From positions 2,604,001 to 2,668,000 of the forward strand of contig NZ_CP107869.1 in the NCBI RefSeq assembly GCF_036013645.1: a stretch of DNA of 64,000 nt, given 5' to 3'. Position numbers and translations under genes: made by a program. Shown here one piece after another: positions 50,680 to 64,000 of the stretch. A model generated the notes under the pieces. The model was not told the origin of the DNA. It saw only the letters and a list, made by a program, of their open reading frames with translations, and ran no database searches. Each line of letters opens with the position of its first letter. Position 1 is the first letter of the stretch. The DNA is from Streptomyces sp. NBC_00490. GTDB taxonomy: Bacteria > Actinomycetota > Actinomycetes > Streptomycetales > Streptomycetaceae.

Positions 50680-52221
50680 GTGACCGACGCGCACACCGCC
50701 GGCCCCTTCATCGCCGCCATCGACCAGGGCACCACCTCCAGCCGCTGCATCGTCTTCGACCGCGACGGACGTATCGTCTCCGTCGACCAGAAGGAGCACG
50801 AGCAGATCTTCCCGAAGCCGGGCTGGGTCGAGCACAACGCCAACGAGATCTGGACCAACGTCGAGGAGGTCGTCGCCGGGGCCATCCAGAAGGCCGGCAT
50901 CACCCGCGACGACATCAAGGCCATCGGCATCACCAACCAGCGTGAGACCACGCTGCTGTGGGACAAGAACACCGGTGAGCCCGTCCACAACGCCATCGTC
51001 TGGCAGGACACCCGCACCGACGCGCTCTGCAAGGAGCTCGGCCGCAACGTCGGCCAGGACCGCTTCCGCCGCGAGACGGGCCTGCCCCTCGCCTCGTACT
51101 TCGCCGGCCCGAAGGCCCGCTGGCTCCTCGACAACGTCGAGGGTCTGCGCGAGCGCGCCGAGAACGGCGACATCCTCTTCGGCACCATGGACAGCTGGGT
51201 CATCTGGAACCTGACCGGCGGCGTGAACGGCGGCCGCCACGTCACCGACGTCACCAACGCCTCCCGCACCATGCTGATGAACCTCCACAGCATGGAGTGG
51301 GACGAGAAGATCGCCGAGTCCATCGGCGTGCCGCTGGCGATGCTGCCCGAGATCCGCTCCTCCGCCGAGGTGTACGGCGAGGTCACCGGCGGCAAGCTCG
51401 GCGACATCCTCGGTGGCATCCCCGTGGCGTCCGCGCTCGGTGACCAGCAGGCGGCCCTGTTCGGCCAGACCTGTTTCGCCGAGGGCGAGGCCAAGTCGAC
51501 GTACGGCACCGGCACCTTCCTGCTGATGAACACCGGCGAGAAGCCGGTCAACTCGTACAACGGCCTGCTCACCACGGTCGGCTACCGGATCGGCGACCAG
51601 AAGGCGGTCTACGCCCTCGAGGGCTCGATCGCCGTCACCGGTTCGCTGGTGCAGTGGATGCGCGACCAGATGGGCCTGATCTCCACCGCCGCCGAGATCG
51701 AGACGCTCGCGCTCTCGGTCGAGGACAACGGCGGCGCCTACTTCGTGCCGGCCTTCTCCGGTCTGTTCGCCCCGTACTGGCGCTCCGACGCCCGCGGCGT
51801 GATCGCCGGCCTGACCCGGTACGTCACCAAGGCGCACCTCGCGCGCGCCGTCCTGGAGGCCACGGCCTGGCAGACCCGTGAGATCACCGACGCCATGACG
51901 AAGGACTCCGGTGTCGAGCTCGCGGCCGTCAAGGTCGACGGCGGTATGACCTCCAACAACCTGCTGATGCAGACCCTCGCCGACTTCGTGGACGCCCCCG
52001 TGGTCCGCCCGATGGTCGCCGAGACGACCTGCCTCGGTGCCGCCTACGCCGCCGGTCTCGCCGTCGGCTTCTGGACCAGCACCGACGACCTGCGCGCCAA
52101 CTGGCGCCGAGCCGCCGAGTGGACCCCCAACATGGCCGCGGAGAAGCGCGACCGTGAGTACAAGAGCTGGCTCAAGGCCGTCGAGCGGACGATGGGCTGG
52201 CTTGAGGACGAAGAGAGCTGA
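50680..52221 (+). CDS. glpK: Glycerol kinase GlpK
   Basis: A 513-residue FGGY-family kinase phosphorylating glycerol to glycerol-3-phosphate, the GylR inducer. N-terminal [16 protein letters not shown], substrate-site [18 protein letters not shown] and WQDTRTD, and the C-terminal FGGY region [22 protein letters not shown] at 50680 has CAGGAG upstream. 75 bp after glpF and 51 bp before glpD. Confidence 0.97.
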
Positions 52222-52272
52222 CGAGAGCCACTCGTAGGCTCAGCACGCTCTGATGAGGAGTAAGAACCCGAA

Positions 52273-53889
52273 ATGACCAGTCAGACCACCCTGCAGTCCG
52301 TGCCTGCCCTCGGTACGCGCCCGGCCTCCGGCTCCAACCCGAGCCGCGCCGAGACCCGGGAGCAGCTCTCCAAGGCGTCGTACGACCTTCTCGTGATCGG
52401 CGGCGGCATCCTGGGCATCTCCACTGCCTGGCACGCCGCGCAGTCCGGCCTGCGGGTGGCCCTGGTCGACGCCGGCGACTTCGCCGGCGCCACCTCTTCC
52501 GCCTCCTCCAAGCTTCTCCACGGCGGTCTGCGCTATCTGCAGACCGGCGCGGTGAAGCTGGTGGCGGAGAACCACTTCGAGCGCCGTGCGGTCTCCCGCC
52601 AGGTGGCCCCCCACCTGGCGAACCCGCTCACGTTCTACCTCCCCGTGTACAAGGGCGGGCCGCACGGCGCCGCGAAGCTCGGGGCGGGCGTCTTCGCCTA
52701 CTCCGCGCTCTCCGCGTTCGGTGACGGCGTCGGCCACCTCCTCTCGCCGGCCAAGGCGGCGCAGGACGTGCCGGAGCTGCGCACCGACAACCTCAAGGCC
52801 GTCGCCGTGTACGGCGACGACCAGATGAACGACGCGCGCATGGCGCTGATGACGGTCCGCGCGGCCGTCGAGTCGGGCGCGGTGGTCCTGAACCACGCCG
52901 AGGTGACCGGTCTGCGGTTCACCAAGGGCCGGGTCACGGGCGCCGAGCTGCGCGACCGTCAGTCGGGCGACGAGTTCGGCGTCAGCGCCCGTCTCGTCCT
53001 CAACGCGACCGGCCCGTGGGTGGACCACCTGCGCAAGCTGGAGGACCCGAACGCGGCCCCCTCGATCCGTCTGTCCAAGGGCGCGCACCTGGTCCTGAAG
53101 CGGACGGCGCCGTGGAAGGCCGCGCTGGCCACCCCGATCGACAAGTACCGCATCACCTTCGCCCTCCCCTGGGAGGACATGCTGCTGCTCGGCACCACGG
53201 ACGAGGAGTTCGAGGGCGACCCGGCGGACGTCTCGGTCACCGAGAAGGACACGGCCCAGATACTCGACGAGGCCGCGTTCTCCATCCGGGACCAGCAGCT
53301 CGACCGTGACCTCATCACGTACGCCTTCGCGGGTCTGCGGGTGCTGCCGGGTGGCCCCGGCGACACCGCGAAGGCCAAGCGGGAGACGGTGGTGACCGAG
53401 GGCAAGGGCGGCATGCTGTCCGTCGCGGGCGGCAAGTGGACGACGTTCCGGCACATCGGCCGTACGGTCATGAAGCAGCTGGAGTCGCTGCCGGGCGCTC
53501 CGCTGGGTGACGACTACGAGCCGATCTCCTCGCTGCCGAAGAAGCTGCCGCTGCCGGGTGTCGCCAACCCGCGCGCGGTCGCGCACCGGCTGCTGGTCGA
53601 CAACCCGGCGCCGGGTCCGCGGATGGCGGCGGACACGGCGAAGCACCTGGCCACCCACTACGGCTCGCTGGCCTTCGACATCGCCCGGCTGGCGAACGAG
53701 AACCCGGAGCTGGGTGAGCGTGTGCACCCGGACGCCCCGGAGATCTGGGCGCAGGTCGTGTACGCGCGGGACAACGAGTGGGCCGAGACGCAGGACGATG
53801 TGCTGCGTCGGCGTACGACGCTGACGATCCGGGGACTTGCCACGGACGACGTCCGCGCCAAAGTCCAGGACCTGCTCGACAAGAAGTAG
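52273..53889 (+). CDS. glpD: Glycerol-3-phosphate dehydrogenase GlpD
   Basis: A 538-residue FAD-dependent membrane-associated dehydrogenase oxidising glycerol-3-phosphate to dihydroxyacetone phosphate and passing electrons to menaquinone. FAD-binding Rossmann motif YDLLVIGGGILGISTAWHAAQSGLRVALVDAGDFAGATSSASSKLLHGGLRYL near the N-terminus, and the C-terminal helical domain. ATG at 52273 follows GAGGAG. Last gene of the glycerol operon. Confidence 0.97.
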   Translation: MTSQTTLQSVPALGTRPASGSNPSRAETREQLSKASYDLLVIGGGILGISTAWHAAQSGLRVALVDAGDFAGATSSASSKLLHGGLRYLQTGAVKLVAENHFERRAVSRQVAPHLANPLTFYLPVYKGGPHGAAKLGAGVFAYSALSAFGDGVGHLLSPAKAAQDVPELRTDNLKAVAVYGDDQMNDARMALMTVRAAVESGAVVLNHAEVTGLRFTKGRVTGAELRDRQSGDEFGVSARLVLNATGPWVDHLRKLEDPNAAPSIRLSKGAHLVLKRTAPWKAALATPIDKYRITFALPWEDMLLLGTTDEEFEGDPADVSVTEKDTAQILDEAAFSIRDQQLDRDLITYAFAGLRVLPGGPGDTAKAKRETVVTEGKGGMLSVAGGKWTTFRHIGRTVMKQLESLPGAPLGDDYEPISSLPKKLPLPGVANPRAVAHRLLVDNPAPGPRMAADTAKHLATHYGSLAFDIARLANENPELGERVHPDAPEIWAQVVYARDNEWAETQDDVLRRRTTLTIRGLATDDVRAKVQDLLDKK

Positions 53890-53961
53890 ACCTCGGGCCG
53901 GCCCCTCCCTGACCTGGCCGGCACCAGGAAACGGCCCCTCTCCCCTATGGGGGCCTGAACG

Positions 53962-54001
53962 CGAAAGGGGCGGCTCCGCGCCGACGGAGCCGCCCCTTTC
54001 G
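53962..54001 (+). terminator. Terminator of the glp operon
   Basis: Perfect 17-bp stem (53962-53978 with 53985-54001) and a six-base loop, 72 bp after the glpD stop and 39 bp before the next gene. Confidence 0.9.
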
Positions 54002-54040
54002 TGTGCCCGCGTTGTCAGTGCCGGGTGTTCTCATGGACGT

Positions 54041-54610
54041 ATGAACGTGGAACAGGCCGCACCTGAGGATCTCGACGCGCTCCACAAGGCGTTCGGCGTG
54101 GACGACGACGGCGCGTCGGCGCTCGGGTGGGAGGCGGTGCACGCCTTCGAGGCGGAGCACGGAATCGTGCTGCCGGAGCCGTACCGGACGTTCGTGGCGG
54201 AGATATCGGACGGGTCGTTCCAGGGACCGCCGGAGTACGGGCTGGTGGGGCTGGCCGAGCTGCCGTCCGACTGGGGCCGCGACGGTGCGGAGCGGAGCCT
54301 GGCCGAGCCGTTCCCGCTGACGGAGCCGTGGCTCTGGGAGGAGGACGAGGGGCCCTACGAGGACCCCGAGGCCGTCACCGACCAGGTCTTCGACCACGGT
54401 TCGATCGTGCTCGGGACGGACGGGTGCGCGATGAACTGGCACCTCGTCGTCACCGGCCCGCACCGAGGGCACATCTGGCACGTCACGGATGTCGGCGCCA
54501 TGCCCTTCGGCGCGGAGTTCGGCTTCACGACCTCCGCACCCGGGTTCGCCGGCTGGGTGGGGCACTGGGCTGCCGGCAAGGAGTGGTTCGACGCCGAGTC
54601 AGCCGAGTGA
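54041..54610 (+). CDS. SMI1/KNR4 (SUKH) family protein
   Basis: A 189-residue acidic protein with the SUKH signature around WEAVHAFEAEHGIVLPEPYRTFVAEISDGSFQGPPEYGLVGLAEL. SUKH proteins include immunity proteins of contact-dependent and polymorphic toxin systems, but many bacterial members are stand-alone. No toxin gene is adjacent. ATG at 54041 is the first methionine with a plausible context. Its 3' end overlaps the convergent mtnK stop by 12 bp. Function unassigned. Confidence 0.85.
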   Translation: MNVEQAAPEDLDALHKAFGVDDDGASALGWEAVHAFEAEHGIVLPEPYRTFVAEISDGSFQGPPEYGLVGLAELPSDWGRDGAERSLAEPFPLTEPWLWEEDEGPYEDPEAVTDQVFDHGSIVLGTDGCAMNWHLVVTGPHRGHIWHVTDVGAMPFGAEFGFTTSAPGFAGWVGHWAAGKEWFDAESAE

Positions 54611-55771
54611 GGCCACCACGTCGCGCACGGCCTGCGGTGACGTCAGCTCCTCGCGCCGCACGACGAGTTCGCGGCCCAGCAGCAGTGCCCGGCGGGACGC
54701 CGGTACCGGGTCCGCGAGAGTCGTCAGGTCGGTCAGGTGGGCGAAACCGATGATGCGGCGGATGATCTCCGTGCCGGCGTAGCCCACGGACTCGGTCCAC
54801 ACCCTGCGCAGGAAGCGGTCCAGGTACGCGTCGTCGAAGAAGGTGTCGACGCGGGTCGGCCACAAGCGGCGGAACTCCGTCTCGAACGCCTCCCAGGACA
54901 GGCGGAGTTGGTCGGGGTGGTCCGACAGCGTGCCCAGTGCTCGCGCCCGTTCCTCCGAGACCAGCGCGTTGGCCCAGTACAGGCCGAGGTCGTAGCCGAT
55001 CGGGCCGACGAAGGAGAACTCGGGGTCGAAGACCCGTATGACGGGGGCGCCTTCGCGTTCGCCGACCATGATGCTGCCGGTGTGCAGGTCGCCGTGGAGC
55101 AGGGCCTGGGCGCTGGTCATGAAGGTGTGGCGGAGGTCGGCGACCTCCGTGCGCAGCCGCGTGTCGGCGCGGAACTCCCGCGCCAGGTCGTCCAGGCCCT
55201 CGTGCCAGTGGTTGTGCTCGTGCTCGATGTACGGCTCCGACAGGACCACGTCCTCCGTGATCTTGCAGAGCTCGGGGCTGACCGAGGCGGCGATCAGCGC
55301 CTTGCGGTCGGCCGACGCCATGCCGAAGTCACTGGTCGCGAAGGAGAACTGGGCGACGAACTCGCCGGTCCTGGCCGAGGTGTGCGGGCCGTAGGGCGCG
55401 CCCTGGTTCAGCAGGGTCCGCAGCACCTCCAGGTCCGACATGTCCTCCATGACGAGGGCGTAGTTCTCGGGGTCGTAGCCGTGGATCGCCGGGATCTTGT
55501 CCGGGGCGACGCGGGCGACCTGCTCGTACGCCCGCGCCTCGGCGTCGGCGCGGTCCGGGTTCATCGGCCAGGAAGGGCCGGCGACGCGGACCCAGGGCAG
55601 GGCCTGCTTGAGGGCGAGGCTGCGGGTGCCGTCGGCGTTCGACGCCAGGAACACCCGGTTCATGTTGCCGTCCGAGACCTCGCGGACCTGCGGATCGGCC
55701 GTCTCGTCCCAGTGGCCCCGCTCGCGCAGGTACGCGGGGATGTCGTCGGTCTCCAGGATGCGGTAGCCCAT
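54599..55771 (-). CDS. mtnK: 5-methylthioribose kinase
   Basis: A 390-residue choline-kinase-like phosphotransferase forming methylthioribose-1-phosphate. Nucleotide region REVSDGNMNRVFLA and ALKQALPWVR, catalytic loop LLHGDLHTGSIMV, metal ligand RVFDPEFSFVGPIGYDLGL. It lies 15 bp after an RbsC-like permease gene and is the last gene of an ABC transporter operon. Methionine salvage then continues through MtnA, MtnB, MtnC and MtnD encoded to the right. Confidence 0.95.
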   Translation of the reverse strand: MGYRILETDDIPAYLRERGHWDETADPQVREVSDGNMNRVFLASNADGTRSLALKQALPWVRVAGPSWPMNPDRADAEARAYEQVARVAPDKIPAIHGYDPENYALVMEDMSDLEVLRTLLNQGAPYGPHTSARTGEFVAQFSFATSDFGMASADRKALIAASVSPELCKITEDVVLSEPYIEHEHNHWHEGLDDLAREFRADTRLRTEVADLRHTFMTSAQALLHGDLHTGSIMVGEREGAPVIRVFDPEFSFVGPIGYDLGLYWANALVSEERARALGTLSDHPDQLRLSWEAFETEFRRLWPTRVDTFFDDAYLDRFLRRVWTESVGYAGTEIIRRIIGFAHLTDLTTLADPVPASRRALLLGRELVVRREELTSPQAVRDVVASLG

Positions 55772-55786
55772 GGTCGGTGAACTCCC

Positions 55787-56833
55787 CTATGCGGTGCGGC
55801 GCTTGGACAGGGTGAAGCTGAAGACGAGGGCGAGGATGAGGACCGCGCCCTCGACGACGTCCTGCGTGTAGTACGGCAGGCCCTTGATGGTCAGACCGGT
55901 CGTGATGATGCCGATCAGGACGGCGCCGAGGGCGGTGCCCCAGACGTTCGGGCGGCCGCGGCCGAGGACCGAGGTGCCGACCAGCGCGACCGCCACCGCC
56001 TCCAGCAACTGGGAGGTTCCGGCGCTGACATCGCCCTGGCCGATGCGGGACGCCAGGATCAGGCCGCCGATCGAGGCGAGGACGCCGGAGATGACGTAGG
56101 CGAGGGAGCGGTACGCGCCGACGCGGATGCCGGCCAGCCGGGAGGCCTCGGGGTTGGCGCCGATGGCGTACAGGACGCGGCCCCAGCGGGTGCGGGCGAG
56201 GAAGACCCAGGCGGCGATCGTCAGGCCGCCGAAGACGAGGACCGAGATGGGGATGCCGAGGACCGTGCCCCGGTCGATCTTCAGGAAGCCCGCGGTGAAC
56301 TTGCCGGGCGCCGTGGAGCCGTCGTCCAGGGTCATGCCGGGGGTGATGGACTGGCCGTCGACCAGGATGAGCTTGGTGCCCTGGATGACGAACATCGTGC
56401 CGAGTGTGGCCAGCATGTCGGGGATCTTCAGCACCACGATGAGGAGCGCGTTCAGCAGCCCTGCCACCGCGCCCGCCGCGATCACCGCGATGATCGCGAC
56501 CGTGCCGACCTGGTTGTGGACGACCATCGTCTGCGCGGCGACGGAGACGCCCAGGCCGGCGACCGCGCCGACGGACATGTCCATTCCGCCGACGGCCATG
56601 GTGAGGGTGACGCCGAGGCCGAGGATGGCGGCGACGGAGACGTACCGCAGGGTGTCGAGGAGGGTGGCCGACTCGCGGAAGGAGCCCTCGCTCAGCGCGA
56701 AGTACAGGAAGAGCGCGACCGTCACGAAGATGAAGCCGTACTTGATGACGGCGTTCTGGACGCGTACGGCGGTGGTGGCGGCGGGCGGGAGCGCCGCCTT
56801 CACCGGGACCTCGGTGCTCTGCTGGGTGGTCAT
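55787..56833 (-). CDS. ABC sugar-type permease (RbsC-like), probable methylthioribose uptake
   Basis: A 348-residue carbohydrate-uptake permease of the RbsC/YjfF type with 8-10 transmembrane helices. Typical stretches are VGGMDMSVGAVAGLGVSVAA, ANPEASRLAGIRVGAYRSLAYVISGVLASIGGLILASRIGQGD and GTSVLGRGRPNVWGTALGAVLIGII. Homodimeric permease with the dual ATPase upstream. The gene order (binding protein, ATPase, permease, mtnK) suggests the substrate is methylthioribose; this is inference. Confidence 0.9.
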   Translation of the reverse strand: MTTQQSTEVPVKAALPPAATTAVRVQNAVIKYGFIFVTVALFLYFALSEGSFRESATLLDTLRYVSVAAILGLGVTLTMAVGGMDMSVGAVAGLGVSVAAQTMVVHNQVGTVAIIAVIAAGAVAGLLNALLIVVLKIPDMLATLGTMFVIQGTKLILVDGQSITPGMTLDDGSTAPGKFTAGFLKIDRGTVLGIPISVLVFGGLTIAAWVFLARTRWGRVLYAIGANPEASRLAGIRVGAYRSLAYVISGVLASIGGLILASRIGQGDVSAGTSQLLEAVAVALVGTSVLGRGRPNVWGTALGAVLIGIITTGLTIKGLPYYTQDVVEGAVLILALVFSFTLSKRRTA

Positions 56834-56873
56834 GAGGGGGACTGCTTCCTTCGGCGGCCGGTGTCAGCCGGGG

Positions 56874-58403
56874 CTAGACGGACACGGCGATGGTCTGGAT
56901 CACGCGGTCGCGTTCCGCGGCTTCGCCGTACGCGTCGAGGTGGATCTCACCGGACGCGAGGACGACGACCCGGTCGGCGATCTCGAGGATCTCGTCGACG
57001 TCGGCGGACAGGACGAGGACGGCGGCTCCCTCGGCGGCGAGGGAGCGGGCCCGGCGGCCGATGTCGCGCCGGGCACCGATGTCCACGCCTCGGAACGGCT
57101 CGTCCAGGATGAGGACACGGGGTGGGTGGGCCAGCCAGCGGCCGACGACGACCTTCTGCTGGTTGCCGCCGGACAGTTCCTCGACGGTGCTGTGCTCGTC
57201 GCGGGCGACGACGCCGAGGGCCTCGATGGTGGCGCGGCCGAGGGCGTCCTCCTTCCCGCGCTGGACGAGCCCTCCTCTGGACAGGGACTTCAGGAACGGC
57301 AGCGAGATGTTCTGGGCCAGCGACCAGCCGGGCACGAGGGCGTCGGCGTGCCGGTCCTCGGGGACCAGGTGGATGCCGGCCCGGATCGCGTCGGCGGGCC
57401 GCCGGGGTGCGAAGTCCTTGCCGTCGAGCTGGACGGAGCCGGACGTGAACGGCTCGGCGCCGAACAGGCCGCGGGCCAGCTCGGTCTTGCCCGCGCCCAG
57501 CAGGCCCACGACACCGGTGACTTCGCCGGCGCGGATGTCCAGGTCGAGGGGGGCGCGGCCCGCGAAGAGCCGTACGCCCCGAAGGGACAGCACGGCGGCG
57601 CCGGACGTCCCCTCGCGGACCGGGCGGGCCGTGGTCGTCTCCTGGGCCTGGGCGAGCATCGCCCGCAGGGCCGCGTCCCAGTCGAAGGGCTTGGTCTGGT
57701 CCTCGGTGAGACGTCCGTCCCGCAGGACGACCAGACGGTCGGCCAGCGCGTCGATCTCGCCGAGCCGGTGGGAGACGTAGAGCACCGCGATGCCGTCGTC
57801 GCGCATCTTCTCGACCAGCGCGAACAGGCGCTCCGCCTCGGCGGCGGACAGGGCGGAGGTCGGCTCGTCGAGGATGAGCAGGCGCGGGCGGGTGGCCAGG
57901 GCGCGGGCGAGGATGAGCAACTGGCGGTCGGAGATGCCGAGTTCGGTGACGTCGCGCTTGAGCAGGCTGTCGCTCCAGTCCAGGCCGAGGCCGGCCTGGA
58001 TCTCGCGGGCGCGGGCGAGCAGCCTGCCCCCGTTCAGGAACGGGTTGCCCCGGCTCTGCGCCAGCTCCTCGAAGACCAGGTTCTCGGCGACCGTGAGGCC
58101 GGGCACGATGCCCTCGCTGATGCGCTGGTGGACGGTCTGGATGCCCAGCTGGCGTGCGGCCAGCGGCGACTGGAGAGCCGCGGGTTCACCCGCGACCCGC
58201 ACCTCGCCGCCGTGGTCGGTGTGCACGCCGGACAGGATCTTGATCAGGGTGGACTTGCCGGCGCCGTTCGCACCGAGCAGCGCGACCACGCTGCCCGGTG
58301 CGATGTCCAGGGAGACGGAGGCGAGGACGGTCTTGCCTCCGAAGGCCATGCTGACGTCGGTGAGGCCGACCGCGGGCGTCTCGGTCGTCTCAGTGGGCGA
58401 CAT
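56874..58403 (-). CDS. Dual-domain ABC sugar-type ATPase (RbsA-like), probable methylthioribose uptake
   Basis: A 509-residue fused ATPase. First domain with Walker A GANGAGKST and Walker B LLILDEPTSAL, but its signature is degenerate (ELGISDRQLLI). Second domain has a variant Walker A (GLLGAGKTE) and a good signature LSGGNQQK with VLILDEPFRGVD. This asymmetry is usual for RbsA-type enzymes. ATG at 58403 overlaps the binding-protein stop by 14 bp. It powers import by the permease encoded 40 bp downstream. Confidence 0.92.
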   Translation of the reverse strand: MSPTETTETPAVGLTDVSMAFGGKTVLASVSLDIAPGSVVALLGANGAGKSTLIKILSGVHTDHGGEVRVAGEPAALQSPLAARQLGIQTVHQRISEGIVPGLTVAENLVFEELAQSRGNPFLNGGRLLARAREIQAGLGLDWSDSLLKRDVTELGISDRQLLILARALATRPRLLILDEPTSALSAAEAERLFALVEKMRDDGIAVLYVSHRLGEIDALADRLVVLRDGRLTEDQTKPFDWDAALRAMLAQAQETTTARPVREGTSGAAVLSLRGVRLFAGRAPLDLDIRAGEVTGVVGLLGAGKTELARGLFGAEPFTSGSVQLDGKDFAPRRPADAIRAGIHLVPEDRHADALVPGWSLAQNISLPFLKSLSRGGLVQRGKEDALGRATIEALGVVARDEHSTVEELSGGNQQKVVVGRWLAHPPRVLILDEPFRGVDIGARRDIGRRARSLAAEGAAVLVLSADVDEILEIADRVVVLASGEIHLDAYGEAAERDRVIQTIAVSV

Positions 58404-59487
58404 TCGAGATCCAGTCCGCGGTCGAGACCTGGGACAGGTTCAGCGCGGGCAGCGCCGTGCGGAGCTGGTCCATGTTCTCGATCTTGTTCTTGTTCAGGAA
58501 GTCCTGGGTGATGGCGACGGCCGGGAACTCGACGGAGGTCTTGTTCAGCTGTCCGGCCAGCTCCAGTGCGGTCGTCCGGACGACGGCGGCGCCCACCGCG
58601 GACGGGTCGGTGCCGGCGGTGGCGACCCACGGGCTGTCGGCGGCGGTCATCTGCTGGATGTCGGCGTTGGAGACGTCCGCGCCGAAGACCTTCACCTTGT
58701 CCTGGAGCTTCTTGTTCTGGACGGCGAGGACGGTGCCCTTGGCCAGCTCGTCGTAGGGGGCGAAGACGCCCGCCACGTCGGCGTGCTGGGTGAGCGCGGC
58801 GGAGACCAGGGGAACGTTGTCGGTGGCCGTGGAATCGGTCACCTTGCCGACCTTGAACTCCTGCTTCCAGCCCTGCGCGGCGAGTTCCTTGGTCCAGACG
58901 GTGTTCCGCTTGTCGAGGGCCGCGTAGCCGGCGACGTTGACGTAGCCGACCTTGGCGTCCTTGCCGACCTCCTTGGCCATCACGTCGAGGACGGCCTGGG
59001 CCATGCTCGCGTCGTCCTGCTTGGTAGAGACGACACCCTTCGTGGCCGTCTCGACGTCGTAGACGACGACCTTGATGCCCTTCTTCACGGCCTTGTCGAT
59101 CTCCGGCTGGATGGTCGCCGGGAAGCCGTGGTCGATGATGATCGCCTTGGCGCCCGAGTTGATCGCCGAGGAGAGGTCGGTGGCCTGCTTGGCGTTGTCG
59201 GCCTGCGCGTCGTACACGGTCAGGTCGATGCCGAGGGCCTTGGCCTGGGCCTTGGCTCCGTTGCCCCACTGCTCGAAGTAGTCGCCGGCGCCGCTCTGCC
59301 GGACCAGGGCGACCTTGACCGCGCCGTCGCTGAAGGGGGCGGGCTTCTTGCCGGTGGCGGCCGACGCGGCGGCGGCGGTGCTGCCGGTGTTCTTCGAGGC
59401 GTCCGTGGACTGCGAGCAGCCGGCGAGCAGGAGCGCGGAGACGGAGGCCAACGAGAGCGCGGCAAGGGGGAGGCGGACACGGGGCAT
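58390..59487 (-). CDS. Sugar-type ABC substrate-binding lipoprotein, probable methylthioribose receptor
   Basis: A 365-residue lipoprotein (lipobox LLAGC) with a periplasmic-binding fold of the ribose-binding type: VALVRQSGAGDYFEQWGNGAKAQAKALGIDLTVYDAQADNAKQATDLSSAINSGAKAIIIDHG. First gene of the transporter-mtnK operon. It is preceded, 141 bases upstream, by a 23-codon leader ORF ending in Cys-Arg. The ribosome-binding site is the GGAG at 59494-59497. The ligand is inferred from mtnK. Confidence 0.9.
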   Translation of the reverse strand: MPRVRLPLAALSLASVSALLLAGCSQSTDASKNTGSTAAAASAATGKKPAPFSDGAVKVALVRQSGAGDYFEQWGNGAKAQAKALGIDLTVYDAQADNAKQATDLSSAINSGAKAIIIDHGFPATIQPEIDKAVKKGIKVVVYDVETATKGVVSTKQDDASMAQAVLDVMAKEVGKDAKVGYVNVAGYAALDKRNTVWTKELAAQGWKQEFKVGKVTDSTATDNVPLVSAALTQHADVAGVFAPYDELAKGTVLAVQNKKLQDKVKVFGADVSNADIQQMTAADSPWVATAGTDPSAVGAAVVRTTALELAGQLNKTSVEFPAVAITQDFLNKNKIENMDQLRTALPALNLSQVSTADWISNVAH

Positions 59488-59544
59488 GAGGGGCTCCAGG
59501 TGCAGGGTGGTGCGAAGGGGGGTGAAGCGGGAGGGGAACGCGCG

Positions 59545-59624
59545 ACCCGGAGCGAGGGAAAGGAATGCGCCACCTCAAGCAGGGGCGGCGGCCCACGGCG
59601 ACAAGGGCGTACGGGGCTCCGGGT
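59545..59624 (-). promoter_or_regulatory. Long-range stem between leader peptide and binding-protein gene
   Basis: In the mRNA ACCCGGAGC (59616-59624), just past the leader stop, can pair with GCUCCGGGU (59545-59553) over 9 bp. The GCUCC of the second arm is also complementary to the GGAGC that forms the binding-protein ribosome-binding site (59493-59497). This is the layout of an antisequestor/sequestor switch. Confidence 0.4.
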
Positions 59625-59628
59625 GGGG

Positions 59629-59700
59629 TCAGCGACAGCTGGCCGTGGCCGTCCGGAGCAGATCCACGTGCAGCCGCCGCACGAGCAGCAGCGTCTTCAT
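59629..59700 (-). CDS. Cysteine-type leader peptide (23 aa) before transporter-mtnK operon
   Basis: ATG at 59700, 23 codons, ending RRLHVDLLRTATASCR. The core HVDLLR followed by a Cys-Arg end matches the short actinobacterial leader peptides found upstream of sulfur and cysteine genes, where ribosome stalling at Cys codons controls downstream expression. Codon Cys22 is TGT at 59637-59635. A similar Cys-Arg ending is present in two other short ORFs of this window. Too short for standard gene callers, but its position and sequence are strong. Confidence 0.75.
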   Translation of the reverse strand: MKTLLLVRRLHVDLLRTATASCR

Positions 59701-59851
59701 GCACAGATCATGGGAACGATTCCGGCCATTCGTCAAAGCACTGAACACGCTTTCTCACTGCTTGAGACAACAACTTCGTCACACCGGGTCGACCTGCCGT
59801 GTCGAGTTACCATCGCCGAACCGGCACCCCACCCGGACCAGTGAGGCCCTG
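59701..59851. promoter_or_regulatory. Divergent promoter region of the two methionine-salvage operons
   Basis: 151 bp between the two leader ORFs, noticeably AT-richer (59730-59780). It contains an imperfect inverted repeat TCAAAGCACTGA (59733-59744) and TCACTGCTTGA (59755-59765), which could bind a regulator shared by both operons. A TACCAT at 59808-59813 is a weak -10 candidate for the plus strand. Confidence 0.45.
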
Positions 59852-59929
59852 ATGACGACACCACACGCGACAGCGCTGCGCATGCCCCGCATGCCCCGCC
59901 GCTGTCCCGGCGCCGCGTGTCGCGGCTGA
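59852..59929 (+). CDS. Cysteine-type leader peptide (25 aa) before mtnDCB
   Basis: ATG at 59852 with GAGG a few bases upstream; 25 codons ending PRRCPGAACRG, with Cys18 and Cys23. The stop lies 93 bp before mtnD. The end R-C-x-G-x-x-C-R is shared with the third leader ORF at 63196. Between leader and mtnD, GTCCGG (59967-59972) and CCGGAC (59988-59993) can pair. A shorter start at ATG 59882 is possible. Confidence 0.55.
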   Translation: MTTPHATALRMPRMPRRCPGAACRG

Positions 59930-60022
59930 CCGGTTGTCCGTCGCCGCCCCTCTTCCTGCCCCGCCCGTCCGGTGCTTGTCTCGGTATCCGGACATCCCTT
60001 TCAGACGCCTGGAGTTGTTCCC

Positions 60023-60622
60023 ATGACCCTGCTGACGACCTGGTCCGAGTCCGGCCCCGAGACGCTGGTCCGCCGTACCTCGGACCCCGCCGAGATCGCC
60101 GAGGCCCTCAAGCCGCTCGGTGTGCGCTACGAGCAGTGGCCCGTGCGTGAGGACGTCCCGTTCGACGCCGACAGCGACACGGTGTTCGCCGCGTACGGCC
60201 CGGAGATCGACAAGCTGAACGCCGAGGAGGGCTTCACCACCGTCGACGTCCTCGGTCTGCACCCCAGCGACGACCCGGAGTTCCCGGCGAAGGCCGCGGC
60301 CGCGCGCGCGAAGTTCCTCCAGGAGCACACGCACGACGACGATGACGAGGTCCGCTTCTTCGTCTCCGGCTCCGGGATCTTCTATCTGCACGTGAACGGC
60401 GAGGTCCACGCGGTCTTCTGCGAGAAGGGCGACCTGCTGGGCGTGCCGCGCGGCACCACCCACTGGTTCGACATGGGCACCAGCCCGTCGTTCACCGCGA
60501 TCCGCTTCTTCCACGAGGAGGACGGCTGGATCGGCAACTTCACCGGCTCGACGATCGCCTCCCGTTTCCCGGACTACGACACGATCGCGGCGGGTTACGC
60601 GGCCGGCAAGGGCGCGGCGTGA
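60023..60622 (+). CDS. mtnD: Acireductone dioxygenase
   Basis: A 199-residue cupin cleaving acireductone to ketomethylthiobutyrate and formate (Fe form). Metal ligands lie in [13 protein letters not shown] (His102, His104, Glu109) and TTHWFDMG (His147). The spacing His104 to Glu109 is one residue longer than the HxHxxxE I expect for the family. ATG at 60023 has GGAG eight bases upstream. First structural gene of mtnDCB; its stop overlaps mtnC by 4 bp. Confidence 0.95.
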
Positions 60623-61353
60623 CGCAGCGGGGCCTGACGTACGACGTGGACGCCGTGGTGCTCGACATCGAGGGGACCACGAGCGCCACGGGCTTCGTCG
60701 TCGACGTGCTGTACCCGTACTCACGCGCGCGCTTCGGCGCGCTGCTGACCGAGCGGGCCGACGATCCGGACGTGGCGCGGGCCGTCGCGCAGGTGCGCGA
60801 GGAGCTGGGCGATCCGCGGGCCGACGCGGCCGCGGTCGAGAAGGCCCTGAACACCTGGCTCGACGAGGACCGCAAGGCCACGCCGCTGAAGACGCTCCAG
60901 GGGATCATCTGGTCCGAGGGCTTCGCGCGCGGCGACCTCGTCTCGCACTTCTACGACGATGTCGTACCGCGGCTGCGTGTCTGGCACGCGGCGGGGACGA
61001 GGCTGTACGTCTACTCGTCCGGGTCCGTGGCCGCCCAGCGGGCGTGGTTCACGAACAGCCCGGAGGGCGACCTCACCTCGCTCGTCTCCGGTCTGCACGA
61101 CACCGAGAACGCGGGACCCAAGCAGGAGCCGGAGTCGTACCGCCGTATCGCGGAGTCGGCCGGTGTCGAGCCCTCGCGGCTCCTCTTCCTCTCCGACCGC
61201 CCCGGCGAGCTGGACGCGGCCCGCACGGCCGGCTGGCACGCGGTGGGCATCCGGCGGCCCGGGGAGCCGTACTACGAGCAGGGCGTCGGCGACCACGCCG
61301 AGGCGGGGGCGTTCGACGAGATCACCATCAGCACCACCGGGAGCACCGTATGA
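60619..61353 (+). CDS. mtnC: Enolase-phosphatase MtnC
   Basis: A 244-residue HAD enzyme that enolises and dephosphorylates diketomethylthiopentyl-1-phosphate to acireductone. Motif [12 protein letters not shown] (Asp16, Glu18), motif [12 protein letters not shown], Lys in GPKQEPESY and [13 protein letters not shown]. The DIEGTT motif distinguishes MtnC from ordinary HAD phosphatases. GTG at 60619 overlaps the mtnD stop; its own stop overlaps mtnB by 4 bp. Confidence 0.95.
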
Positions 61354-61958
61354 CCGCCGAGATCACCGAACTGGACCTGGAGGAGGCGGGGGCGGTTCTC
61401 GCCGCCGAGTCCGCGCGCTTCGCGGGCTTCGGCTGGATGCGGGGCACCTCCGGCAACCTGTCCGTCGTGCTCACCCGGGAGCCGCTGCGGCTCGCGGTCA
61501 CCGCGAGCGGGCACGACAAGGGTGAACTGACCCCCGCGGACGTGGTGTTGGTGGACGGCCGGGGCGCCGCGGTGCGGGGCGGCAAGCCGTCCGCGGAGGC
61601 CGAGCTGCACGCGCGGGTCGCCGCGCTGACGGGGGCCGGGGCCGTGGTGCACGTCCACACGGTCGCCTCCGTGGCGATGGGCCGGCGGGAGCCGGGCGGG
61701 ATCGTCTTCAAGGACGTGGAGATGCTCAAGGGCGTCGGCCAGCCGGCGCACGACGTCGAGGTGACGCTGCCGGTGATCGCCAACAGCCAGGACATGAAGG
61801 TGCTCGGGGACCGTCTGGAGGCGGCTCGCGACCCGCGGATGCCGGCCGTGGTGGTCGCGGGGCACGGCCTGTACGTGTGGGGCGCCGATCCCCGTCAGGC
61901 GCGCCACCACACCGAAGTGGTCGAGTGGCTGCTGGAGTTGGAGCTGTCGCAGCGCTGA
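61350..61958 (+). CDS. mtnB: Methylthioribulose-1-phosphate dehydratase MtnB
   Basis: A 202-residue zinc enzyme of the class II aldolase fold. FGWMRGTSGNLSVV at the N-terminus, TASGHDKGELTPADVVLVD, catalytic Glu in PSAEAELH, zinc ligands in VVHVHTVASV and a third His in VVAGHGLYVWG. It dehydrates the product of MtnA. Start ATG 61350 is coupled to mtnC. Last gene of the operon. Confidence 0.95.
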   Translation: MTAEITELDLEEAGAVLAAESARFAGFGWMRGTSGNLSVVLTREPLRLAVTASGHDKGELTPADVVLVDGRGAAVRGGKPSAEAELHARVAALTGAGAVVHVHTVASVAMGRREPGGIVFKDVEMLKGVGQPAHDVEVTLPVIANSQDMKVLGDRLEAARDPRMPAVVVAGHGLYVWGADPRQARHHTEVVEWLLELELSQR

Positions 61959-61971
61959 GCGGCGCCGGGAA

Positions 61972-62003
61972 GAAGGGGACCTCCGGGCTCGGGGGTCCCC
62001 TTC
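61972..62003. terminator. Terminator between mtnB and mtnA
   Basis: 13-bp stem GAAGGGGACCTCC/GGGGGTCCCCTTC (one G-T pair) with loop GGGCTC, between convergent stops. Confidence 0.85.
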
Positions 62004-62018
62004 CCCGTGCCGCGGGTT

Positions 62019-63050
62019 CTACTGCAGGTGGTCGCCGGGCAGTTGGCCGGACGCCACCTCCAGCACGCCCCGCTCCGTCACCAGTCCCGTCACCAGCCGC
62101 CCCGGCGTCACGTCGAAGGCGGGGTTGTGGCCGCGCGACTCGGCGGGCGCCGTCCGCACCCCGCCCCACTCCAACACCTCGGCCTCGCCGCGCAGTTCGA
62201 TGTGGATGTCGTCGCCGGTCTTGGTCGACAGGTCCACGGTCGTCGTCGGCGCCGCCACCAGGAACGGGATCCCGGCGTCCGCGCACGCGAGCGCCACGCC
62301 CACCGTGCCGACCTTGTTCGCGGTGTCGCCGTTGGCGGCGATGCGGTCCGCGCCGACGATCGCGGCGTCGACCTGGCCGCGCAGGATGGTGCCGGCAGCG
62401 GCGCCGTCCGCCTGGACGTAGTGCGGTATGCCCTCCTGGACCAGCTCCCAGGCGGTGAGGCGGGATCCCTGGAGCAGGGGGCGCGTCTCGTCGGCGTAGA
62501 CCACCTCGAGGCGTCCGCGCGCGTGGAGTTCGCGGATGACGCCGAGTGCCGTGCCCCATCCGGCCGTCGCCAGGGCGCCCGTGTTGCAGTGGGTCAGGAC
62601 GCGCAACGGCCGCTCCACGCCCACCCTTTCGAGCAGCCAGTCGGCACCGTGGGCGCCCATCGCCCGGTTCGCCTCGACGTCCTCGCGCTGGACGGCGACG
62701 GCCTCCTCCAGCACGGCGTCGAGGCCCTCGTCGAAGCGGGTCATCACGCGGTCCACGCACACCATCAGGTTGACGGCGGTCGGCCGGGCCTCCCGGACGC
62801 GTGCGACGGCGGCCCGCACCTCGTCCACCGACCAGCCCTCGCGCTCGCCCTGCACCAGCGCGAGCGCGACGCCGTACCCGCCGGCCGCACCGATCGCGGG
62901 CGCGCCGCGCACCACGAGCCGCTGGATCGCGTCGACCAGGGTGTCCACATCGCGGACAATCCTCGTCTCGTTGCGGTGCGGGAGCAGTGTCTGGTCGATG
63001 AGGGCGAGGGCGTCTCCGGTCCAGTCGACGGCACGCAATTCCTGGGGCAT
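62019..63050 (-). CDS. mtnA: Methylthioribose-1-phosphate isomerase MtnA
   Basis: A 343-residue eIF2B-alpha-like aldose-ketose isomerase that converts methylthioribose-1-phosphate to methylthioribulose-1-phosphate. Catalytic Cys in VLTHCNTGALATAGWGTALG and Asp in IVGADRIAANGDTANKVGT. ATG at 63050 has AGGAG upstream. Transcribed on its own toward mtnB. Upstream in-frame sequence (to 63785) is the shadow of the lipoprotein gene. No Cys leader ORF was seen before this gene. Confidence 0.95.
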   Translation of the reverse strand: MPQELRAVDWTGDALALIDQTLLPHRNETRIVRDVDTLVDAIQRLVVRGAPAIGAAGGYGVALALVQGEREGWSVDEVRAAVARVREARPTAVNLMVCVDRVMTRFDEGLDAVLEEAVAVQREDVEANRAMGAHGADWLLERVGVERPLRVLTHCNTGALATAGWGTALGVIRELHARGRLEVVYADETRPLLQGSRLTAWELVQEGIPHYVQADGAAAGTILRGQVDAAIVGADRIAANGDTANKVGTVGVALACADAGIPFLVAAPTTTVDLSTKTGDDIHIELRGEAEVLEWGGVRTAPAESRGHNPAFDVTPGRLVTGLVTERGVLEVASGQLPGDHLQ

Positions 63051-63195
63051 TTCGGGACACTCCTGCTGTTCCGGTGGTGTCCGGCCACGGTACATGACCT
63101 GGTAGAACCACAGTTCGAGACAGTCGGGCAGGTGTCCGGAAACGGATGCTACTGTCCGCCAATCAGTCCGCAGACCGAGACGAAGGAGGAAGCCC
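63051..63195. promoter_or_regulatory. mtnA / leader-lipoprotein divergent promoter region
   Basis: 145 bp that must hold promoters in both directions. TACTGT at 63150-63155 is a possible plus-strand -10 box. No clear operator was found. Confidence 0.3.
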
Positions 63196-63261
63196 GTGCT
63201 GCTGACCAAGCGCCGTTTCCTCGACTTCGGCCGGTGTGCCGGTGACGGCTGTCGACGCTGA
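63196..63261 (+). CDS. Cysteine-type leader peptide (21 aa) before BMP lipoprotein
   Basis: GTG at 63196 with a very strong ribosome-binding site (AAGGAGGA, six bases upstream). 21 codons: TKRRFLDFGRCAGDGCRR at the end, with Cys14 and Cys19. RR-x-x-D-F-G-R resembles the RR-x-HVDLLR block of the leader at 59700, and R-C-x-G-x-x-C-R matches the leader at 59852. It ends 80 bp before the lipoprotein gene. Confidence 0.7.
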   Translation: MLLTKRRFLDFGRCAGDGCRR

Positions 63262-63341
63262 CCCGTCCCCGTTCCAGCGTCCCCTCTCACCTCATCGCCG
63301 CTCCCGCCGAGCGTGCCTCGCCGTACCCGGAAGGTCTCCCG

Positions 63342-64000
63342 ATGTCCCGTAGACACCACCGTTCCCTCCAACTCGCCGCCGCCACCGCCCTCATGGTCAC
63401 CGCGGCCACCGCCTGCAACGCCGCCGCGAAGAGCGACGCCTCCGACAGTGCGAGCGGCGGCAGCGGCAAGACCTTCACCCTCGTCACGCCCGACGCGGTC
63501 GGTCAGAACGAGTTCCTGAAGCTCGCCGTCAGCGGCGTCAAGGCCGCGGCGAAGCAGCACGACGGCTCGCAGAAGGTCTACGAGTCCACGGACACCGCCT
63601 CCCAGCAGCAGAACGTCCAGGCCGCGGTGGACGCCAAGCCGGACGTCGTCGTACTGGTCGGCTTCGAGTTCGCCGACCTCGTCGCGCAGCAGGCTCAGAA
63701 GAACCCGAAGCAGCAGTTCCTGATCATCGACGCCTGCACCGCCAAGACCTTCGAGAACGTCAGCTGCGCGGTCTTCCGCGAGCACGAGGGCGTGTACCTC
63801 GCGGGCGTCGAGGCCGGTCTGCTCAGCGAGTCGGGCAAGGTCGGCGCGGTCGACGTCCTCGACACCCCCCAGTTCCGCCGCTACAGCGACCCGTTCGCGG
63901 CCGGCGCCAAGAAGGTCGCCGCCAAGACCGAGACGGGGACGCGCTTCGTCGGCGGCCAGTCCCCCTTCGACGACTCGGCGCGTGCCAAGGAGCAGGCGAA
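63342..64000 (+). CDS. BMP-family ABC substrate-binding lipoprotein (3' truncated)
   Basis: Open to the right edge of the window; 219 codons visible. N-terminal signal peptide with a lipobox-like ATAC (AAATALMVTAATACNAA), then a BMP/PnrA-type fold: FTLVTPDAVGQNEFLKLAVSGVKAAAKQ, QAAVDAKPDVVVLVGFEFADLVAQQAQKNPKQQFLIIDAC and EHEGVYLAGVEAGLLSESGKVGAVD. BMP proteins bind nucleosides, so this may take up methylthioadenosine or another purine compound; context next to mtnA supports this but does not prove it. Confidence 0.85.
   Translation, partial: MSRRHHRSLQLAAATALMVTAATACNAAAKSDASDSASGGSGKTFTLVTPDAVGQNEFLKLAVSGVKAAAKQHDGSQKVYESTDTASQQQNVQAAVDAKPDVVVLVGFEFADLVAQQAQKNPKQQFLIIDACTAKTFENVSCAVFREHEGVYLAGVEAGLLSESGKVGAVDVLDTPQFRRYSDPFAAGAKKVAAKTETGTRFVGGQSPFDDSARAKEQA

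Follow-up and report, generated by a model that had tools for sequence, protein, structure and literature searches.

A methionine-salvage locus of Streptomyces sp. NBC_00490 carries three short open reading frames (ORFs) with cysteine codons near their ends, and the first of them, L1, is a strong candidate for a translational attenuator whose anatomy was resolved by comparative analysis and predicted RNA folding. The locus lies in a stretch of 64,000 nucleotides (contig NZ_CP107869.1, positions 2,604,001 to 2,668,000), here called the window and numbered from its first letter. An earlier note on this DNA had read the three ORFs as a set of cysteine-responsive leaders, one for each transcription unit. 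The ORF observation itself is confirmed, with positions, lengths and peptide ends all in agreement, and domain and NCBIfam matches bear out the assigned units: L1 precedes the ABC transporter-mtnK operon, L2 precedes mtnDCB, and L3 precedes the gene of a Bmp/PnrA-like lipoprotein. The idea of a set of three is partly right. Conserved leader ORFs of the sulfur class stand at units of the locus and keep their Cys codons, but the leaders differ from one another: 39 of the 81 mtnD-bearing loci lack L2, and neither L2 nor L3 shows a switch comparable to that of L1. The leaders are as follows.

59629..59700, minus strand: leader ORF L1, 23 codons, MKTLLLVRRLHVDLLRTATASCR, with a single Cys codon (UGU) at codon 22.
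59852..59929, plus strand: leader ORF L2, 25 codons, MTTPHATALRMPRMPRRCPGAACRG, with Cys at codons 18 and 23, both UGU.
63196..63261, plus strand: leader ORF L3, 21 codons, MLLTKRRFLDFGRCAGDGCRR, with Cys at codons 14 and 19, both UGU.

The comparison set consists of the window and the best 80 loci of a longer list of MtnD matches, 81 loci in total; 77 of the 80 relatives are labelled Streptomyces, two "Actinobacteria bacterium" and one Wenjunlia. The methionine-salvage locus is accessory in the genus, because MtnD was found in only 43 of 199 sampled genus genomes, including that of the window. All three leaders occur together in 29 of the 81 loci. The earlier note had named loss of frame or of Cys codons in close relatives as a sign against its reading; no such loss was seen for L1 and nearly none for L3, while L2 partly fails this check.

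L1 accompanies its gene beyond chance. It is present in all 54 loci where the first transporter gene was found, in 53 by pattern and in L058 with Phe in place of Leu, and also in L030, where the contig stops before the transporter gene. The 54 pattern-matched sequences comprise 8 peptide variants, with 28 sequences identical to MKTLLLVRRLYVDLLRSTTASCR, and codon 22 is UGU in every one. Third codon positions are conserved (mean entropy 0.15 bits, compared with 0.71 in the upstream flank and 1.40 in the downstream flank), and therefore the RNA is held as well as the peptide. Each sampled genome with a strong match (E below 1e-12) has a single one; such genomes number 9 of 101 and 9 of 197 in two samples, both of which include the window's genome. 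As a protein, L1 scores 29.1 bits against NF042934 (cut-off 27) and covers profile positions 1-19 of 19; the bare L1 match in the genome search reaches 26.9 bits, slightly under the cut-off, and ten other places in the same genome exceed it. The only promoter-like site detected in a scan of 59450-60060 is conserved in the L1 alignment, and L1 appears to start leaderless. This site and four seven-base segments of the L1 RNA are listed below.

59707..59736, minus strand: promoter-like TTGACG-18-CATGAT, ending 6 nucleotides upstream of the L1 ATG.
59653..59659, minus strand: segment A, GCUCCGG, within L1.
59616..59622, minus strand: segment B, CCGGAGC, immediately after the L1 stop codon.
59547..59553, minus strand: segment C, GCUCCGG, between B and D.
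59493..59499, minus strand: segment D, CUGGAGC, containing the Shine-Dalgarno site of the transporter lipoprotein gene.

Of the 52 usable L1 sequences, 39 have the exact cores of B and C; L030 and L051 were dropped from the 54 for want of a usable transporter gene start. Segment C sits in an otherwise poorly conserved stretch of the alignment. The minimum-energy folds of the window's L1 RNA are A:B plus C:D when ribosome-free, B:C with a stalled ribosome, and C:D with the ribosome at the stop codon. The energy test folded only the RNA 3' of the ribosome and computed how much energy it would take to open the Shine-Dalgarno site. Over the 52 sequences the mean cost was 6.41 kcal/mol with the ribosome at the stop codon, 4.75 at Cys22 and 5.78 without a ribosome. 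The difference between stop and Cys22 was 1.66 kcal/mol, compared with -0.02 (standard deviation (sd) 0.16) in 20 dinucleotide-shuffled sets, and exceeded 1 kcal/mol in 28 of the 52. In six of these sequences the Shine-Dalgarno site is misplaced through a misjudged gene start; lacking GGAG in the last 20 bases, they were excluded from the codon scan and from the footprint and thinning tests, which used 46 sequences. Thinning to 23 dissimilar sequences gave a difference of 1.71 kcal/mol, with 13 of 23 above 1. The difference was positive at all footprint edges from P+12 to P+18 (0.68 to 1.72 kcal/mol), with a peak at P+15. In the codon scan, the opening cost was low with the ribosome at codons 11 to 22 and higher at codon 23 and at the stop codon, and therefore Cys22 is the last opening codon of the predicted switch. 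The consensus scan detected no intrinsic terminator-like site in 59450-60060 or 63040-63400. No Rfam family, the S-adenosylmethionine (SAM) riboswitch included, matched up to E 1 in 52000-64000 or at gathering scores in L029, L035 and L052.

We consider it fairly probable that the leaders are sulfur-status ORFs controlling methylthio uptake and recycling, with L1 acting by translational attenuation and L3 and the retained forms of L2 belonging to the same broad class. When charged tRNA-Cys is plentiful, the ribosome would pass Cys22, reach the stop codon, cover the start of B and depart; A:B and C:D would then pair and the Shine-Dalgarno site of the transporter gene would be hidden. When charged tRNA-Cys is scarce, the ribosome would wait with UGU22 in its A site, leaving B just past its leading edge and barred from A. 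B would then pair with C, D would be exposed, and the transporter-mtnK operon would be translated. We infer that the signal is cysteine and that control acts at translation rather than transcription. More tentatively, and at somewhat less than even chances, this one locus may use several leader ORFs that differ in their RNA logic and through which falling charged tRNA-Cys opens methylthioribose-type uptake, methylthioadenosine-type nucleoside uptake and methionine recycling together; selection would have fixed UGU at the sensing position and, in L1, placed it as the last exposing codon.

Several results weigh against this reading. L1 carries a single Cys codon. Its ratio of nonsynonymous to synonymous polymorphism (pN/pS), 0.28, equals the lowest of 60 column permutations, so that constraint on the peptide is not separated from constraint on the RNA. 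The exact cores of B and C are lacking in thirteen of the 52 sequences, of which L080, L085 and L087 have another long C:D match and the others a weak one or none. In those three, an altered Shine-Dalgarno region, TGGAGTCC, pairs with a matching altered segment, GGATTCCA or GGATTCCG, a change that is suggestive, yet probably one event. Covariation in the flanks of the B and C cores is no stronger than under permutation, values as high as those observed arising in 1327 and 537 of 5000 permutations, so that the pairing rests on conserved, not compensating, cores. The difference between stop and Cys22 fails to exceed 1 kcal/mol in 20 of the 46 sequences and falls below -1 in 2. The ribosome-free and stalled states are less distinct (1.03 kcal/mol, compared with a shuffled mean of 0.48, sd 0.18, maximum 0.90), and the L1 RNA as a whole is not unusually stable (z -0.62). 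A stall anywhere in codons 11-22 would open the site, so that the fold does not single out Cys. The sequences of the comparison set are also mutually related and not independent. Beyond L1, twelve other leaders of the genome (a thirteenth, L003, was omitted for its short gap) gave no clear effect in the switch test, 0.52 compared with 0.16, sd 0.37. L3, tested in the 37 of 45 loci with a full-length start of the next gene, gave -0.08 kcal/mol, within the shuffled range (0.03, sd 0.22). L2 gave 0.21 kcal/mol, which is higher than in any of its 8 shuffled sets (mean -0.09, sd 0.13, highest 0.07) but a tiny effect, an eighth of that of L1, with 3 of 42 sequences above 1 kcal/mol. The earlier note's idea of attenuation by a Cys stall finds a fitting RNA architecture in L1 and none comparable in L2 or L3.

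The codon used for cysteine is a feature common to the three leaders. Of 141 leaders, 137 have UGU as their last Cys codon (L1 54/54, L2 41/42, L3 42/45); among the earlier Cys codons of the leaders, 78 of 148 are UGU. In 625 genes predicted in the 80 loci, UGU accounts for 177 of 1302 Cys codons (13.6%), and in the genes of the window and L139 for 25 of 123; these counts do not separate selection on the codon from selection on the bases. Fifteen leader-like ORFs were read in the genome of the window (L001-L015), a set that includes L1 and three weak family matches; at least one UGU occurs in 14, and the last Cys codon is UGU in 11. By eye, further leader-like ORFs of this set precede genes resembling those for cysteine synthase, cysteine dioxygenase, sulfite/nitrite reductase, rhodanese, TauD and MetY. 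The leader-like ORF L004, ahead of a ROK-type gene, had the top switch score of the 12 leaders tested, 3.44 kcal/mol.

L3 is a well-conserved leader. The Bmp gene occurs in 53 of the 81 loci, and L3 precedes it in 45 of them by pattern and in 48 when the variants in L029, L046 and L100 are counted, the last in RRHIDLCR style. Two of the remaining loci (L040 and L068) have no such ORF, and in three (L089, L096 and L104) another short ORF, rich in Cys and with a CPAVS...CRCRRC-like end, stands at the place of L3. The test of codon-level conservation that the earlier note had proposed gives a clear signal here: pN/pS is 0.40, compared with 1.05 (sd 0.41) for permuted columns and 0.45 for the lowest of 60 permutations, and the occurrence is beyond chance. 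In 11 of 101 genomes there is a single strong match (E below 1e-8), in every case within 5 kb of that genome's mtnD, and in the second sample strong matches are present in 12 of 197 genomes. The Cys count is two in 31 of the 45 sequences and three in 14. L3 scores 16.8 bits (E 0.0041) against NF042933 leader_Ms5788A, far under the cut-off of 45, and does not match NF042934 either. The site that the note had placed ahead of L3 is present and kept in the L3 alignment.

63183..63190, plus strand: AAGGAGGA, the Shine-Dalgarno-like site of L3.

Shine-Dalgarno-like sites are present in the alignments of both L2 and L3, and the scan found no promoter-like site for either. A complementarity at the L3 stop region of the window, GACGCTG/CAGCGTC, is mostly not kept in the 37 relatives examined.

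A rival mode of control is Rho-dependent or other transcription termination between leader and gene, relieved by a stall, which could apply to L2 and L3 and perhaps to L1. The leader-to-gene stretches of L1-L3 are C-rich (47-50%) and G-poor (22-24%), a composition that would suit Rho, although these figures describe the leader stretches alone and not Streptomyces untranslated stretches in general. No intrinsic terminator-like site was found by the consensus scan, L2 and L3 are without a Shine-Dalgarno switch, and Rho was proposed for mycobacterial cys leaders in PMC1262725. The predicted Shine-Dalgarno switch of L1, however, needs no terminator, and we regard termination as fairly unlikely.

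L2 is the least constant of the three. It was recognised by pattern in 42 of the 81 loci, among them 39 of the 54 with the divergent transporter gene, and 15 of the 39 loci without L2 retain the divergent transporter operon. No copy of the end motif was found in 35 of these 39, and a fragment is present in four (L070, L074, L086 and L092). Seven were read base by base (L032, L040, L052, L053, L055, L070 and L074); L2 is missing or a fragment in each, and the mtnD start region survives, as does the promoter-like TACCAT or an equivalent. On an mtnD tree with only 14 of 78 inner branches well supported, L2 requires 14 changes, 4 of them forced by well-supported branches, compared with a shuffled mean of 27. 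L2 can be recognised as an ORF in the 42 loci, but the codon test gives no clear signal: pN/pS is 0.79 (24 sequences, 75 nucleotides) compared with 0.94 (sd 0.24) for permuted columns, and 0.71 (8 sequences, 60 nucleotides) compared with 1.03 (sd 0.63), neither distinguishable. The 42 sequences have two to five Cys codons, at most two of them adjacent in the peptides read, and L2 does not match NF042934. By these comparisons L2 is a recurring, fast-changing and dispensable element that has been lost repeatedly.

Two further ideas about L2 were set aside. A role as methionine sensor was rejected; short L2 forms without an internal Met keep Cys. A frame shift behind the loss was rejected as well: no frame with the L2 end was found in 33 of 34 loci listed, and in the 34th, L067, L2 sits further upstream and is included in the 42. 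Six of the 39 loci without L2 were outside that list, among them L088, whose similar ORF could begin only at a GTG.

L2 could also be a drifting ORF beside the mtnD promoter with no leader function. Its absence from nearly half of the loci, its changes on the tree, its permutation-like pN/pS and the lack of an NCBIfam match all fit such drift. On the other hand, the 42 loci keep the start, the stop and a C-x(3-4)-C end, with the last Cys codon UGU in all but one, and length differences are whole codons, although the collecting pattern itself favours such features. Loci without L2 mostly hold no trace of its end, as given above. On balance we think drift distinctly unlikely.

Arrest by the nascent chain, in which the signal would be something that the RRLYVDLLR-type peptide itself senses inside the ribosome tunnel and not Cys starvation, draws on an L1 peptide nearly fixed well upstream of Cys, on an RR...DL core that recurs in other leaders of the genome and on the breadth of the opening window in codons 11-22, but seems improbable given that L1 third codon positions are fixed too, that RNA pairing can explain part of the conservation, and that Cys is the invariant residue near the ends of L1, L2 and L3, always a few codons from the stop and with UGU strongly preferred.

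Two non-coding stretches beside the leaders were observed. Upstream of mtnD, window positions 59967-59993 hold the inverted repeat GTCCGG-N15-CCGGAC, which is also found in L053 and, imperfectly, in L032, both without L2; it may act apart from the leader, as an operator or a hairpin. Between the divergent L1 and L2 transcripts, at 59751-59785, a TCTCA-N-TGAGACAACGACTACGTCACA-like stretch recurs in several relatives and is possibly a shared operator. The genes of the units are listed below.

58390..59487, minus strand: ABC transporter substrate-binding lipoprotein, sugar-type (Peripla_BP_4), the first gene after L1.
56874..58403, minus strand: ABC transporter ATPase, L1 unit.
55787..56833, minus strand: ABC transporter permease (BPD_transp_2), L1 unit.
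54599..55771, minus strand: mtnK, S-methyl-5-thioribose kinase (TIGR01767, 411 bits, cut-off 275).
60023..60622, plus strand: mtnD (ARD family/domain), L2 unit.
60619..61353, plus strand: mtnC, acireductone synthase (TIGR01691, above the equivalog cut-off).
61350..61958, plus strand: mtnB, methylthioribulose 1-phosphate dehydratase (TIGR03328, above the equivalog cut-off).
62019..63050, minus strand: mtnA, S-methyl-5-thioribose-1-phosphate isomerase (TIGR00512, 425 bits, above the equivalog cut-off).
63342..64000, plus strand: Bmp/PnrA-like lipoprotein gene, L3 unit, extending beyond the window end and whole in L139.

The ORF list shows no Cys-ending ORF of at least 20 codons directly upstream of mtnA on the same strand; shorter ORFs fall outside that list. 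Beyond the window, in L139, the Bmp gene is followed by genes for an ATPase, two permeases, a PNP_UDP_1 phosphorylase, an amidohydrolase and a GntR regulator. The phosphorylase and the amidohydrolase score below the specific equivalog cut-offs, and therefore their putative handling of methylthioadenosine is deduced from context.

In attenuation of the trp and erm types, as in the model for L1, a ribosome on a leader ORF governs the pairing of alternating RNA segments, and in the erm type the Shine-Dalgarno site is hidden. In L1 the proposed signal is charged tRNA-Cys, with neither a terminator nor an antibiotic involved. In Bacillus, genes for the scavenging of methylthio compounds are controlled by SAM riboswitches. 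Canestrari et al. reportedly described, in 2020, polycysteine leaderless short ORFs ahead of mycobacterial sulfur-metabolism operons, in which a stalled ribosome is said to free the ribosome-binding site of the next gene and several operons are tied to one amino acid. The locus resembles that system in having a short Cys-containing ORF before sulfur units, with an apparently leaderless L1 start and, by prediction from folding, release of the ribosome-binding site of the gene behind L1; here too several operons would be tied to a single amino acid. Unlike the mycobacterial Cys runs, L1 has one Cys, and those of L2 and L3 are mostly separated; the leaders here serve genes of methionine salvage and of methylthioribose-type and nucleoside-type transport.

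A 2005 study predicted Cys leader ORFs, with no terminators, upstream of mycobacterial cys operons (PMC1262725), and a Cys-ending ORF of M. smegmatis was reported in 2015 to be occupied by ribosomes (PMC4633059). Translation attenuation of M. smegmatis cysteine genes is attributed to Canestrari 2020 in PMC13236596. For S. lividans TK24, the available part of PMC8079986 lists eight leader peptides of Leu, Trp, Ala, Ile, Met and Thr types, none named there as Cys-dependent; these ORFs are likewise short and often leaderless and precede amino-acid genes, among them MetL before metNIQ. MetL, called methionine-dependent in that part of the paper, is Cys-rich at its end, GARCMCRRMCAF, with three Cys, and may be a cysteine leader.

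By score L1 belongs to NF042934, a cis_reg_atten family termed "putative leader peptide", a name given by annotation and not by test; L2 and L3 fall outside it, and L3 resembles NF042933. Our literature search, to which subscription papers were mostly closed, found nothing on such leaders at Streptomyces methionine-salvage genes. Cysteine-responsive leader ORFs of mycobacteria and an NCBIfam name for the class of L1 were already known, and what appears new is the use of leaders across a methionine-salvage locus, the anatomy of the L1 switch, the UGU bias and two leader types without a model.

If the proposed mechanism is true, cysteine starvation in Streptomyces would directly induce the scavenging of methylthio compounds through ribosome-gated RNA switches. 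L1 would offer a compact and testable model, with one Cys codon, four seven-base segments and one Shine-Dalgarno site, and the UGU bias may serve as a simple signature for detecting unannotated cysteine leaders.

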